Source: Planctomycetaceae bacterium (GTDB lineage: Bacteria; Planctomycetota; Planctomycetia; Planctomycetales; Planctomycetaceae). From it: 43,729 nucleotides of DNA. The first letter of the stretch is position 1; the number at the start of each line of letters is the position of its first letter. The position numbers and the translations under genes are program-made. Below the pieces are notes generated by a model that worked only from the letters and a program-made list of their open reading frames with translations, searched no databases and was not told the DNA's origin. The stretch is from positions 1 to 43,729 of the forward strand of contig JADZEF010000054.1 in the NCBI GenBank assembly GCA_020850695.1, written 5' to 3'. Below are positions 14,710 through 20,041 of this stretch, piece after piece.

Positions 14710-16350
14710 ATGTCGCCCGGACGGCGTCCTGCGCTGCTTCGTTACTTCGCCGCCGCCTGCATTGTGGCTGTCTGCTTACTGCTGCGTGGTCTTCTCGACC
14801 CCCTCATCCATCGCGAGAGTCCGTATGTGATTCTCCTGGGTGCTGCAATGCTTGCCGCCTGGTTCGGTGGATTCGGTCCCGGGGCCTTTGCGGTGCTTCT
14901 TTCCGCTCTGGGAGCGAATTACTTCTTCCTCGACTCGGATGCGGGCATTTTTGTTCCGGGAACGCTGATCAATGCGGGCCTGATCGTGTTTGTGCTCGAA
15001 GGGATGTTCGTCAGCTGGCTGACCGAGAATCTGCACGTCGCACTCCAGAAGCATGCGGCGTCCGAGCGGCAACTGGCCGAGGCGGACGTCCGCAAGGATG
15101 AATTCCTTGCGACTCTCGGACACGAGATGCGGAATCCACTCGCGACGATCCGCCATGCGATCGCCATTCTCAAGGACGCCCGCGCGACGCCGGCGCAGTG
15201 TTCCCGCGCGCGCGATACGCTCGAGCGACAGTCCGATTATCTGACTCGGATGATCGACGACATCCTCGATGTGTCCCGGATCACGCGCGGAAAACTCGTC
15301 CTCAAGAATCAAAAGCTCGATTTGCGGGAGGTCGTCGCGCGGGCGGTCGAACAGTGCCGCAACCAGATCGACGCGCGGCGCCATGAGTTCCTGGTCTCGG
15401 TTCCGGCCGAAGCAATGATGGTCGACGGGGACATCATGCGGCTGACACAGGTTGTGTCCAACCTGCTGACGAACGCGGCGAAGTATACCGACGAAGGGGG
15501 ACGGATCATCCTTCAGGCGACCGTGGACGAGTTCGAAGCCACGATCTCGGTCCGCGACTCGGGGATCGGCATCTCTCCCGAGATGCTCCCACGCGTTTTC
15601 CAGCTCTTGTCGCAGTCGGACCGCTCGATCAGCCGTTCGCAGGGGGGGCTGGGATTGGGTCTGGCCGTCGTCCGGAGCATCGTCGAACGGCATCGCGGGA
15701 CTGTGATGGCATACAGTGCCGGGGCAGGCCGGGGAAGCGAATTCGTCGTGCGGATCCCGCGGGCGACGGCCCGTCCCGAACCGAGTCGCGCAGCAATCGC
15801 CCGGCGCCGCGCCCGCCGAACGACGGCGACGTCGACCCCCACCGTCCCCACCGCGACAGTCAGCAATTCGATGAGCGGATTGCTCCCCTCACAGCTCGAG
15901 CGCCGCCAGGCCGGATTTCCTTCGCCACGAGCGCTGCGGATCCTGATAGTCGACGACAATGAGGACATTGCGTCCGGATTGTCGACGCTGTTGCGGTTGG
16001 ACGGCCACGATACGCGGACGGCCGGCAATGGGGCGATTGCCGTGGAAATGGCTCGCAGCTACAAGCCGCATGTCGTGCTGCTTGACCTGCATCTGCCGGA
16101 CGCCGACGGGTGCGATATCGCTCGACAATTCCGCCAGGAGTTCCAAGGTCAGCCGCTCCTGCTGGTGGCCATGACCGGCCACTCGGGCGAAGAGGTCCGC
16201 CGACGCTGCCGCGATTCGGGTTTTGACGAATACCTCTTGAAGCCGGTGCGGCATACGGACCTGGTCGATCGCCTGAGCCGATTCGCGGCCGACCGCGTGA
16301 TGGGCAAGACGAATTCGAGCGTGTCGATCCCCACGTTGGCGACGAATTGA
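14710..16350 (+). CDS. hybrid histidine kinase: DUF4118 membrane domain, HisKA, HATPase, receiver
   Basis: This 546-residue sensor opens with a KdpD-like DUF4118 domain of closely spaced helices (about residues 10-103: YVILLGAAMLAAWFGGFGPG and others). A coiled linker leads to HisKA with phospho-acceptor His138 in ATLGHEMRNPLATI. The ATPase domain has an N-box (VVSNLLTNAAKY), G1 (RDSGIGIS) and G2 (GGLGLGLAVV). A Pro/Ala/Arg-rich linker precedes a complete receiver domain with acidic pocket VDDNED, phospho-acceptor Asp459 (LLDLHLP) and Lys511 (LLKPV). No HPt or output domain is present, so the phosphate is probably passed to a separate partner or the receiver tunes the kinase. DUF4118 helices suggest a membrane-derived signal with no large external sensor. 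It converges on the methyltransferase with 53 bases between them. Confidence 0.93.
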   Translation: MSPGRRPALLRYFAAACIVAVCLLLRGLLDPLIHRESPYVILLGAAMLAAWFGGFGPGAFAVLLSALGANYFFLDSDAGIFVPGTLINAGLIVFVLEGMFVSWLTENLHVALQKHAASERQLAEADVRKDEFLATLGHEMRNPLATIRHAIAILKDARATPAQCSRARDTLERQSDYLTRMIDDILDVSRITRGKLVLKNQKLDLREVVARAVEQCRNQIDARRHEFLVSVPAEAMMVDGDIMRLTQVVSNLLTNAAKYTDEGGRIILQATVDEFEATISVRDSGIGISPEMLPRVFQLLSQSDRSISRSQGGLGLGLAVVRSIVERHRGTVMAYSAGAGRGSEFVVRIPRATARPEPSRAAIARRRARRTTATSTPTVPTATVSNSMSGLLPSQLERRQAGFPSPRALRILIVDDNEDIASGLSTLLRLDGHDTRTAGNGAIAVEMARSYKPHVVLLDLHLPDADGCDIARQFRQEFQGQPLLLVAMTGHSGEEVRRRCRDSGFDEYLLKPVRHTDLVDRLSRFAADRVMGKTNSSVSIPTLATN

Positions 16351-16403: not shown

Positions 16404-18146
16404 TCAGATCGCCGTCCCGTCGAACAGGTTGAGCACGGGCTTGAGTCGCTGCACCAGAAGGGACTGGTACCCTAGGAGAATGGTCGAATTCGTGTCGGCG
16501 GGAAATGTCCGCACGAAAAGCGAATCCGAGCGAGCCCACTCGCTCCACACCTGTCGAAGCGACTTCTTGCCGAAGTTGGACGTCAGCCGTTCGCGAAGGT
16601 GCAGCGACTGACCGACGTAGATCGTCGAATCCGTTCCATCGCCCGAGACGACGTAAAGCCCCGACGCAGGGGCGTCAATCGCCGCCACTTCTTCCAGCGG
16701 ACGCGGCGCTCCCAGGCGTCCCGGACCTTCGAGCCGTGTCAGTGTTTCCGACATTCGCTGGCCGTGCGCGCGTGCGTCGTTCGCCTCTTTGCGGAGCTTC
16801 AATGCTCCCCAGCGATATTCCAGCGAAGTGAAACCGGGTGCCGCGCGGCGTGCCACCGCGTCAAACTCGGCCGCCGCAAACGGATCGCACAGGACGTCGT
16901 CCAGGCTGTCCGCTCCCGCATCGATCATCTTGCGCCAGGCAATTTCGCTGGCGAAGAGAAAGGGATCACAATGATCCCACGTGAACTCCGTGCGCTGATG
17001 CGTTTCCAGCCCCGCGAGACGACCCGCCTTGCGAAGGCGGAACAGCAGCCGGTTGATGTGGCGGGCGTCGCCGGGAACTCCCTTTGCAGCACATTCGGCG
17101 GCCAGCCGTGTATTGAGTTCGGGATCGGCGATAACGCGATCGAGCGAGTGTCCCTCCCGGGCCTTGTCATAGGCTGCGATCAGATTTTTCACCACCTGCT
17201 CGTCGACGTGGGGTGCGGCCGGAGGCGGCGGTTCACTCGCCTTTCTCTGCTTCCTGGCGAACTCGTTCGCCGGCCGTCCCGACGTTTTCCCCGTGGGCGT
17301 GGGGGGAGCGCTGGCTGTCGGCTCGGCGGCGCCGACGAGCGGATCGCCCACGCAGACGGAAGCCAGCCGCTCGCGGCCGCGGGCGATGTATTCCGGCGAA
17401 ACATCGAATCCCACGTAATCCCGTCCCAGTTTGCGAGCCACGATGAGCGTCGATGCACTCCCCGAGAACGGGTCGAGCACCAGCTCTCCCGGCTCGGAAC
17501 ACATGCGGATGATGCGGCCGAGCAGCTGTTCCGGCATCTGACAGCCATGGAACCCGGCCCGTTCCTTGAACGTGCCGGCGACGCGGGGGAAGTACCACGT
17601 GTCTTCCATCGTCGTGAAGGCCCCGGCGGCATCCTGCGGACGCAGGATCCATGTGTCGTCAGCCAGCCGTCCCCTGGGGTTCGCCCGCGTGTCCGCGTAG
17701 ACGAGCTGCCGCGCCGAAGGAATGCGGTTCTCCGGATCCTCGGATCGAAAGGTGAACTGCGAACGGTCTTTCACGAAATGGAACAAGTGAGCGTGCGACC
17801 GCGTGAACTTGCGCGTGCAGTTCACACCGAAGGTGTAATACCAGACGACCCAGCTGCGGCAATGAAATCCGATTTCGCGGCTGATCAGCTTGAGCTCGGC
17901 CGCGTACTCGTCGCCAATCGCCAGCCAGAACGTCCCGGTCGGCTTCAGCGCGCGATGCACCGCACCGATCCATTGCCGCGACCAGTCGAGGTACTGCTCG
18001 TGCTCGCGCGAGTCGTCGTAGACGTCGTATTCATAGCCGATGTTGAACGGAGGATCGGCAAAAGCCAGATCGACCGAACCCGCCGGCAGAGCATTCATTC
18101 CGGCAATACAGTCGCCGAGATGGATCGAATTTCGCGCTCCGTCCAC
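16404..18146 (-). CDS. DNA methyltransferase (N4/N6 type) fused to C-terminal GIY-YIG-like domain
   Basis: This 580-residue protein carries an amino-methyltransferase domain at about residues 5-260: catalytic DPPFNIGYEY at 31-40 and SAM-binding LVLDPFSGSASTLIVA later, an order typical of beta-class N4-cytosine/N6-adenine enzymes. A Pro/Ala-rich linker follows, then a helical middle region of unknown fold (about 315-480). The C-terminal 85 residues resemble a GIY-YIG nuclease: GLYVV (496), IYVGQSLHLRERL (Arg518) and LVQRLKPVLN. The position of the metal-binding Glu before the final helix is Gln561 (GYQSLLVQRLKPVLN), so cleavage is doubtful and DNA binding or target recognition more likely. No separate restriction enzyme lies nearby. 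It could be an orphan regulatory methylase, a degenerate single-chain restriction system or a repair factor. Confidence 0.85.
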   Translation of the reverse strand: MDGARNSIHLGDCIAGMNALPAGSVDLAFADPPFNIGYEYDVYDDSREHEQYLDWSRQWIGAVHRALKPTGTFWLAIGDEYAAELKLISREIGFHCRSWVVWYYTFGVNCTRKFTRSHAHLFHFVKDRSQFTFRSEDPENRIPSARQLVYADTRANPRGRLADDTWILRPQDAAGAFTTMEDTWYFPRVAGTFKERAGFHGCQMPEQLLGRIIRMCSEPGELVLDPFSGSASTLIVARKLGRDYVGFDVSPEYIARGRERLASVCVGDPLVGAAEPTASAPPTPTGKTSGRPANEFARKQRKASEPPPPAAPHVDEQVVKNLIAAYDKAREGHSLDRVIADPELNTRLAAECAAKGVPGDARHINRLLFRLRKAGRLAGLETHQRTEFTWDHCDPFLFASEIAWRKMIDAGADSLDDVLCDPFAAAEFDAVARRAAPGFTSLEYRWGALKLRKEANDARAHGQRMSETLTRLEGPGRLGAPRPLEEVAAIDAPASGLYVVSGDGTDSTIYVGQSLHLRERLTSNFGKKSLRQVWSEWARSDSLFVRTFPADTNSTILLGYQSLLVQRLKPVLNLFDGTAI

Positions 18147-18382: not shown

Positions 18383-20041
18383 TCATTTCCCCGCACGGAG
18401 AGCAATCGCCAAACCAAGCAGCCGCAGGTATCCCTCTTCTACAGTCACCTTCAGCACCGGCCCGGTTGGTGAACCGGTCACGTCGACCGACAAGCGGTCC
18501 TTGCCCCGAATGAAGGCATCCCGCAGCAGCCGCGTTCTGGCGCTCTCCTCTCCGGCCTGGGGCGACATCGCCACCCACGTTCCCGCCGCAATCTCCAGCT
18601 GCAGTCCGTCCACTGGCGTCCCCTCCCTGGCAGCGCGGGAGACAAAGCCGGTCACGTCGCTCTCGTTCGACTTTCCCGCGACAGCGAACCAGAGGGTCTC
18701 TCGTCCCGCCCCCACCAGCAGCCCTGGCTTGGGGCCAAACACTCGGTCGTCATTCGCCGACGCACTGCGACCCGTCAAGCGATGAAGCTGGACCTCTCCC
18801 GCGTCGACGGCGTTCGTCTCGACGGCCCCAACGTTCGGATGCCGGCCGAGCTTCTGGAGCAACTCGGGCAGTGCTCGGGCCAGCGAGTCGGCGTCCTTCA
18901 TCTGGATGCCCCCCACCATCGTCAGCGGCCCGGGGGCGGCGCCGACGAAATGAACTTCCACATCGAGCCGGCCGGCTTCCATCGTCGCCTTGAGGGGCCC
19001 AAACAAGCGTGACAGGAGTGCTGCATCCTCGGGATTGGCCTTGGCCAGGGCCTGCTTTTCAACGGCATTCGCCAGATCTCGAAGTGCCGGACGACGCTTC
19101 TCGGAAACCGTAAAACCGATTTTCAACCGGGCGGGAGAGGCCGGGTTCGCCAGGTTTCCGACCATCGGCGGCGCCCCCGCCTCCTTGCCGTTCGCATTGA
19201 CGAACCGTGCCTCCAGCGAAGCGGACCTGGTCGTCTGGTCGATCGTGAGTCCGACGACAACCTCGCGCCCATTCCGGACGGCCGATTCGATCATCTCGAG
19301 ACCCGCATCGCTCATTTCCTTTTGCGCCCGAACCGCTTCTTCCGTCGAGTCAGGCTTCTCGGCGGCCTTCTGCTGGTCGGCCTCGACCCGAGCCCGGACC
19401 GTCCCCAGAAACAATTGCTTCACCCCCTCGGGAACGACGCTCAAATCGACCCGTGCGGCAATGTCGTACTTCGTCGCGAGATCCTTCGTCAAAGCCTCGA
19501 TGTCGGGAAACGCGCGGTCGAGCGCAACCCCCTTGGGGGCGATCATCGCGTGCGTCCCGTGGAACTGGAGAAATGCCGATCCGTTCGGACCTGCCAGTTC
19601 GTGCCGCCCGGTCTTTCCTTCCACGGGTTTCGTGCGGATCGGCCCGAAGGCCACCGTCTTGAGGAAGGCGTCGGCATCTGCCACCGGGACAAATCCGATC
19701 GGCTCGGGCTTGGGAGGAAAGCCCCCCGTCAGAAAAACGAGAATGCCCGCCGGTCGGCTGCGATCGGCCCCTTCGAAGTTGCCGACGTTGTTCAGCAGTC
19801 CCTTGAGCGAATCGAACAAGTCACCATGGTCAGCCGAGACGGCGACCGTCTTGACGTCTTCGAGGAGCCGATCAATCGAAGCGGCCGTGACCACAACGAG
19901 CGGACGGGCCGTTGCCTTGTCTTGTGCGACGGCGTCCTGCGCGACGGCCGACAGCGGCGGCAAAACCAGCGATTGAGAGAGAACGACGACGACCGTCAAA
20001 AAAATCCGGCGCATGGTGGGCGAGATGCGAATGCGGAACAT
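18383..20041 (-). CDS. secreted protein of unknown function
   Basis: This 552-residue product starts with a signal peptide (MRRIFLTVVVVLSQSLVL, cleavage near AVAQD). After that no enzyme motif is visible. Two roughly 200-residue halves share a layout of alternating strands and helices, with phrases such as ILVFLTGGFPPKPEPIGFVPVADADAFL and GPLTMVGGIQMKDADSLARALPEL; an acidic, Lys/Glu-rich helical stretch lies between (ARVEADQQKAAEKPDSTEEAV). This resembles planctomycete exported proteins annotated only as hypothetical. Location is probably periplasmic. ATG 20041 is taken; ATG 20014 (nine codons in) begins the signal peptide more neatly and is a good alternative. It is divergent from the DUF1549 gene. 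Confidence 0.75.
   Translation of the reverse strand: MFRIRISPTMRRIFLTVVVVLSQSLVLPPLSAVAQDAVAQDKATARPLVVVTAASIDRLLEDVKTVAVSADHGDLFDSLKGLLNNVGNFEGADRSRPAGILVFLTGGFPPKPEPIGFVPVADADAFLKTVAFGPIRTKPVEGKTGRHELAGPNGSAFLQFHGTHAMIAPKGVALDRAFPDIEALTKDLATKYDIAARVDLSVVPEGVKQLFLGTVRARVEADQQKAAEKPDSTEEAVRAQKEMSDAGLEMIESAVRNGREVVVGLTIDQTTRSASLEARFVNANGKEAGAPPMVGNLANPASPARLKIGFTVSEKRRPALRDLANAVEKQALAKANPEDAALLSRLFGPLKATMEAGRLDVEVHFVGAAPGPLTMVGGIQMKDADSLARALPELLQKLGRHPNVGAVETNAVDAGEVQLHRLTGRSASANDDRVFGPKPGLLVGAGRETLWFAVAGKSNESDVTGFVSRAAREGTPVDGLQLEIAAGTWVAMSPQAGEESARTRLLRDAFIRGKDRLSVDVTGSPTGPVLKVTVEEGYLRLLGLAIALRAGK

Follow-up and report, generated by a model that had tools for sequence, protein, structure and literature searches.

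Gene organization and the methyltransferase domain

We analysed a 43,729-nucleotide stretch of DNA from a Planctomycetaceae bacterium (the window), in which an open reading frame on the minus strand (16404-18146, GTG start) encodes a 580-residue protein. This protein joins a DNA methyltransferase domain, through a linker, to two helical repeats and a C-terminal domain of the GIY-YIG type (Table 1). Its neighbours are a membrane hybrid histidine kinase on the plus strand (14710-16350; DUF4118, HisKA, HATPase, and response regulator domains) and, on the minus strand, a gene for a probably exported protein of 552 residues with no Pfam match (18383-20041). Of the 80 homologous loci, only 4 have a protein similar to the histidine kinase in their flanks.

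Table 1. Features of the methylase gene in the window; residue numbers refer to the 580-residue protein.
Feature	Position in window	Strand	Basis
Whole gene, 580 aa: predicted solitary DNA methylase of the beta class, ending in helical repeats and an inactive GIY-YIG-like domain	16404..18146	-	predicted
Methyltransferase domain, residues 6-268 (DPPF 31-34; DPFSGSAST 225-233)	17343..18131	-	Pfam, NCBIfam, structure match
Stretch of highest conservation (residues 141-205); probable target-recognition region	17532..17726	-	conservation; target-recognition call inferred
Linker, residues 277-312, unstructured, poorly conserved	17211..17318	-	pLDDT under 50; conservation
Tandem pair of helical repeats, at about residues 316-378 and 395-462	16761..17201	-	internal homology; model pLDDT 94-98
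GIY-YIG-fold domain, residues 494-575	16422..16667	-	family profile, Pfam on homologues, AlphaFold, structure search
Gln561 codon, replaces metal-binding Glu	16464..16466	-	alignment of homologues

Residues 25-255 match the Pfam family N6_N4_Mtase (PF01555, E=1.1e-49), and the solved structures nearest to the domain are M.MboIIA, CcrM, and M.BceJIV. The DPPF motif at 31-34 is invariant in 81 loci, with DPFSGS at 225. An N6_N4_Mtase domain with a catalytic DPPF/Y/W ahead of the SAM-binding motif defines the beta-class N6-adenine type, and this is the arrangement found here; judged by sequence, the window protein is a beta-class N6-adenine-type DNA methyltransferase, and adenine methylation is predicted. 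Conservation within the methylase peaks over residues 141-205 (mean majority-residue frequency 0.87). From the motif order of the beta class, this stretch is the probable site-recognition region and a better candidate for that role than the repeats.

A scan of species genomes returned 80 essentially full-length homologues that are 47-60% identical. Wherever a phylum is recorded for them it is Planctomycetota; a few records read only 'bacterium'. None of the 80 loci has a shortened C-terminal half. We also considered a universal CcrM-like methylase of the phylum and dropped the idea, as the distribution of the module is patchy, with 103 of the 397 genomes of the class carrying it.

A GIY-YIG fold preceded by two helical repeats

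Queried on its own, the window protein gave no GIY-YIG match in Pfam or among PDB sequences, and a family profile was needed to reveal the domain. The profile matched UvrC GIY-YIG structures at an E of 8e-10, while Pfam found GIY-YIG in 67 of 91 homologous C-terminal regions at E<=0.1 (best 2.3e-8), one homologue (L027) lying above the curated cut-off. In an AlphaFold model of residues 310-580 (mean pLDDT 93.1, pTM 0.91), residues 496-568 follow the strand-strand-helix-helix-strand-helix order expected for GIY-YIG. The best structural match of this model is the GIY-YIG domain of UvrC (Z 6.7, 85 of 90 residues), with further matches to T4 endonuclease II and to R.Eco29kI (Z 5.0-5.3). These Z values are moderate, yet GIY-YIG domains consistently fill the top ranks, in accord with the sequence profile; Foldseek alone gave an E of about 0.05 against UvrC, which is convincing only when combined with the profile evidence. 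A structure search with the full-length model was filled by methylases and uninformative on the C-terminus. By family profile and predicted structure, residues 494-575 adopt a GIY-YIG fold. An earlier note, made from the DNA letters, had proposed methylase motifs and a GIY-YIG fold in one chain and had staked this beforehand on the predicted fold. Pfam, the family profile, AlphaFold, and the structure matches, UvrC and Eco29kI among them, bear the proposal out.

The middle region, described in that note as matching nothing known, consists of two tandem helical repeats of about 60 residues (hhalign 97.1%, E=7e-11, against at most 2% in column-shuffled controls) that are common to a wider nuclease family. 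Their structural matches are weak and helical (GT-1 DNA-binding domain, Z 5.2 over 62 residues) and give no basis for a fold claim. The repeats recur in the nuclease of the same operon, in proteins with signal-like N-termini, and in HicB/RHH-like proteins near D12-class adenine methylases, and thus they go with the nuclease domain rather than with the methylase. Their occurrence in apparently exported nucleases argues against a sequence-specific role. The suggestion that the middle region serves by itself as the specificity module is weakened accordingly, all the more as the methylase has a conserved region of its own at 141-205 that resembles a target-recognition domain.

Active-site positions of the fused domain

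The motif residues of the window protein are G496-L497-Y498, Y510-V511-G512, Q561, and N573, with Q561 exactly 12 residues ahead of N573. An active GIY-YIG nuclease carries its metal-binding Glu 12 residues before the Asn, and here that position holds Gln. Across 106 methylase loci (95 different sequences) the residue at 561 is Q in 90, R in 6, K in 5, A in 3, C in 1, and V in 1, and Glu in none, confirming the earlier reading of Gln561 as the substituted metal ligand. The motif positions first assigned at 496, 510, 561, and 573 stand; Arg518 does not, as the Arg conserved across the family is R520 (76/81, versus 38/81 for R518). Tyr498, Tyr510, Arg520, and Asn573 are conserved in the fused family. 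The active-site His expected four residues after the Arg (H108 in Eco29kI) is Asn524 in the window protein and is His in only 9 of 69 methylases.

A search for a nearby Glu that might rescue the metal site, which the earlier note had named as an outcome that would refute its reading, yielded none. Glu513, directly after the YIG motif, is present in 65 of 81 homologues, but the nucleases with Glu561 have it without exception too; it is therefore not a replacement for the missing residue, and the window protein has Gln there. Type IIC single-chain restriction-modification enzymes combine cleavage and methylation residues in one polypeptide, and in the window sequence the catalytic Glu of such a set is absent.

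In R.Eco29kI, the E142A substitution abolished cleavage and kept DNA binding (PMC1952068), and an E142Q variant has been crystallised as an inactive form of the enzyme. H108 belongs to the Eco29kI active site, and H108F weakened DNA binding by that enzyme (PMC1952068). We infer that the fused domain is unable to cut, as had been predicted together with possible DNA binding, and the evidence supports that prediction. By analogy with R.Eco29kI, binding of DNA by the dead domain is possible, though it could be weaker without the counterpart of H108.

An intact nuclease in the next gene

At 10 of 81 close loci (the window being one of the 81), L021 and L022 among the ten, the methylase gene is followed by a nuclease gene of about 252 codons, joined by an ATGA overlap in seven cases, by TAATG in two, and by a 6-base gap in one. 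The encoded protein has the same two repeats and a GIY-YIG domain that lies above the Pfam cut-off, and the G-Y, Y-G, R, H(+4), E, and N positions are all present in 13 of 13 aligned rows, which stand for 11 separate loci, L122 and L123 being duplicates of L028 and L035. On these motifs, the downstream gene is likely a restriction enzyme, with cleavage predicted. It is the only recurrent same-strand gene adjacent to the methylase, and the flanks of the homologous loci revealed no other conserved gene neighbourhood.

The nuclease gene is absent at 63 of the 81 loci, including the window, and 8 loci are unjudgeable at contig ends. A cultured carrier of the methylase without the nuclease is Thalassoglobus neptunius KOR42 (L045). 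A methylase gene adjacent to a nuclease gene, the mark of a Type II restriction-modification system, is therefore found at the level of the family (10/81) and not at the window locus. The window's own genome contains no second module of repeats plus GIY-YIG, and its one other GIY-YIG protein above the cut-off is UvrC-sized (555 aa). With the nuclease gene absent from this genome, the window protein is probably a solitary methylase. Plasmids searched for a nuclease homologue contained none, and the phage matches listed cover only the methylase domain.

Where both proteins are present, distances between nucleases correlate with those between methyltransferase domains (Mantel r=0.60, p=0.002) and with those between methylase C-termini (r=0.79, p=0.0002). 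Nuclease and methylase may share a target site, a matter on which this co-divergence bears indirectly. Loci with the nuclease lie dispersed across the methylase tree (10 changes, at least 7 of them forced), for which the simplest reading is that an old methylase-nuclease pair lost its nuclease many times over; transfer of both genes together on several occasions is a possible alternative.

Selection and history of the fused domain

Between close pairs, nearly all of them nuclease-less, dN/dS of the GIY-YIG domain is about 0.02-0.24, well below neutral, yet the domain evolves faster than the methylase domain. It is also the least conserved folded part of the protein (mean 0.41), and for this reason its role may be structural. 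The low dN/dS values indicate that the fused domain, inactive as judged from its residues, is under purifying selection and not decaying.

On the tree, the fused domains group in a single clade that excludes every standalone one (100/99), and methylases still paired with a nuclease have Gln or Lys at 561. From these two observations, inactivation of the fused domain would be an old event, probably a single one, that preceded loss of the nuclease. The alternative first offered for this gene, a decayed single-protein restriction-modification system, fits poorly with the absence of Glu561 from every fused relative (0/106), with the one clade, and with purifying selection. Together these indicate that what is missing is a nuclease encoded separately downstream, and not a lost activity of the chain itself.

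Standalone members of the wider family

We also identified standalone two-repeat GIY-YIG proteins with an intact Glu and a signal-peptide-like N-terminus. Eight of them (L127:1126-2271, L128:1492-2508, L129:1492-2457, L130:1495-2532, L131:1492-2481, L142:1492-2379, L148:1495-2424, and L095:1315-2340) form one clade and, with signal peptides judged by eye, are apparently exported nucleases. Four further standalone proteins (L132:1477-2667, L133:1492-2667, L138:1042-2253, and L120:1249-2274) each lie less than 2 kb from a D12-class adenine methylase (4/4 seen). Three of them carry a HicB/RHH-like stretch at the front (checked with Pfam in two), and an Mrr-type restriction nuclease is also found near L132. 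By gene context, these four loci may be additional restriction-modification systems that use the shared module. L133 has Leu at the metal-Glu position, while L120 keeps Glu and has a changed YIG motif and catalytic Arg; inactive GIY-YIG forms may thus have arisen more than once.

Interpretation

Our starting point is a domain make-up with a GIY-YIG fold, a conserved Gln in place of the metal ligand, pairing with an intact nuclease in some species, and absence of that nuclease from the window genome. We consider it probable that the gene supplies the methylase half of a Type II-like restriction-modification family of planctomycetes, fused to a nuclease-dead homologue of the nuclease from that family, with the repeats and the dead domain binding DNA. 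More tentatively, and with rather less confidence, we propose that this family, so far seen only in Planctomycetota, might use the dead homologue as a shared DNA-targeting or partner-binding module, which, in the majority of species that have lost the nuclease, would now serve a solitary, conserved epigenetic methylase.

In the proposed mechanism, the methylase carries the fused repeats and a GIY-YIG domain in which Gln replaces the metal Glu and the active-site His is lost, and in some species the next gene of a start/stop-overlapping pair encodes an intact nuclease (with Glu and His). The repeats and the dead domain would bind DNA and so help the methylase to hold or find its sites. Where the nuclease is present, they could bring both enzymes to the same DNA, or into contact with each other. 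In the window organism, the protein would act as a solitary adenine methylase at one conserved site, for epigenetic marking or for protection against foreign nucleases.

The main rival is a pure partner-binding role, in which the dead GIY-YIG domain would be chiefly a protein-protein module, forming a mixed dimer that restrains or positions the nuclease as a built-in antitoxin and serving as a dimerisation or structural domain where the nuclease is missing. GIY-YIG restriction enzymes such as Eco29kI act as dimers (PMC3161791), the methylase C-terminus and the nuclease have the same domain order, and the nuclease co-diverges more tightly with that C-terminus than with the methyltransferase domain. 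We nevertheless regard this role as unlikely, given that 63 of 81 methylase loci have no adjacent nuclease and the domain is still under purifying selection. It is much less probable that the C-terminal half has been a leftover on its way to being lost since the nuclease disappeared: the faster evolution of the domain and the many nuclease-less loci would fit, but dN/dS is well below 1 in nuclease-less pairs, all 80 loci keep the full length, and the change to Gln, found also in nuclease-paired methylases, came before nuclease loss. Least probable of all is a single-chain restriction-modification enzyme that still cleaves through another acidic residue or an unusual active site, of which R.Hpy188I is an example (PMC2630997); four motif residues are conserved, but the metal Glu is missing throughout, the His is usually lost, the corresponding E142A kills R.Eco29kI, and Glu513 is shared with the Glu561-bearing nucleases and is Gln in the window.

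The preferred reading, of a methylase with a disarmed nuclease homologue, would offer a testable case of an enzyme pair with one common DNA-handling module, live in the nuclease and disarmed in the methylase, and thereby a possible route for a methylase and a restriction enzyme to keep matching targets. Repeated nuclease loss with the dead domain kept would constitute a natural series for restriction-modification systems becoming solitary methylases. The family also adds a group of predicted restriction enzymes from a phylum on which we found little published work about restriction-modification in the open literature.

Comparison with known systems

The beta-class methylases YhdJ, CcrM, M.MboIIA, and M.BceJIV resemble the window protein in sequence, in fold, and in having DPPF first and DPFxGS last. 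However, they match it only in residues 1-276 and have neither the repeats nor GIY-YIG, and the window protein scores under the curated cut-off of both the YhdJ-type and the CcrM model. UvrC, whose N-terminal GIY-YIG domain is the best match to the window domain by both fold and profile, keeps its Glu and works in excision repair, whereas the window domain has Gln.

The restriction enzymes R.Eco29kI, R.Hpy188I, and R.Cfr42I share the GIY-YIG fold. The Eco29kI system is also similar in its overlapping nuclease and methylase genes, and the active-site Y, Y, R, H, E, and N are all found in the downstream nuclease of the planctomycete family. The gene order differs, with the nuclease first in Eco29kI and the methylase first here, and, in contrast to the GIY-YIG restriction enzymes, repeats and GIY-YIG occur here in both the methylase (dead) and the nuclease.

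Searches of the open literature on GIY-YIG/methylase fusions, Planctomycetes methylomes, and planctomycete restriction-modification yielded no description of the family, nor of a methylase carrying a dead homologue of its own restriction enzyme beside a live one. Two known arrangements come close. The engineered RM.Eco29kI, a fused Type IIC enzyme, has methylase and GIY-YIG in one chain as in the window (PMC3039593), but is active in both functions, while the window protein is without the metal Glu. In Lactobacillales, a COG4123 methylase is fused or adjacent to an Slx1-like GIY-YIG domain (PMC1564403), although that methylase belongs to another family (NPPY, COG4123) and the Slx1-type domain is without the C-terminal Asn. 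A single-chain methylase with GIY-YIG is thus already known, and what is apparently new in the planctomycete family is a dead nuclease homologue on the methylase next to a live nuclease.
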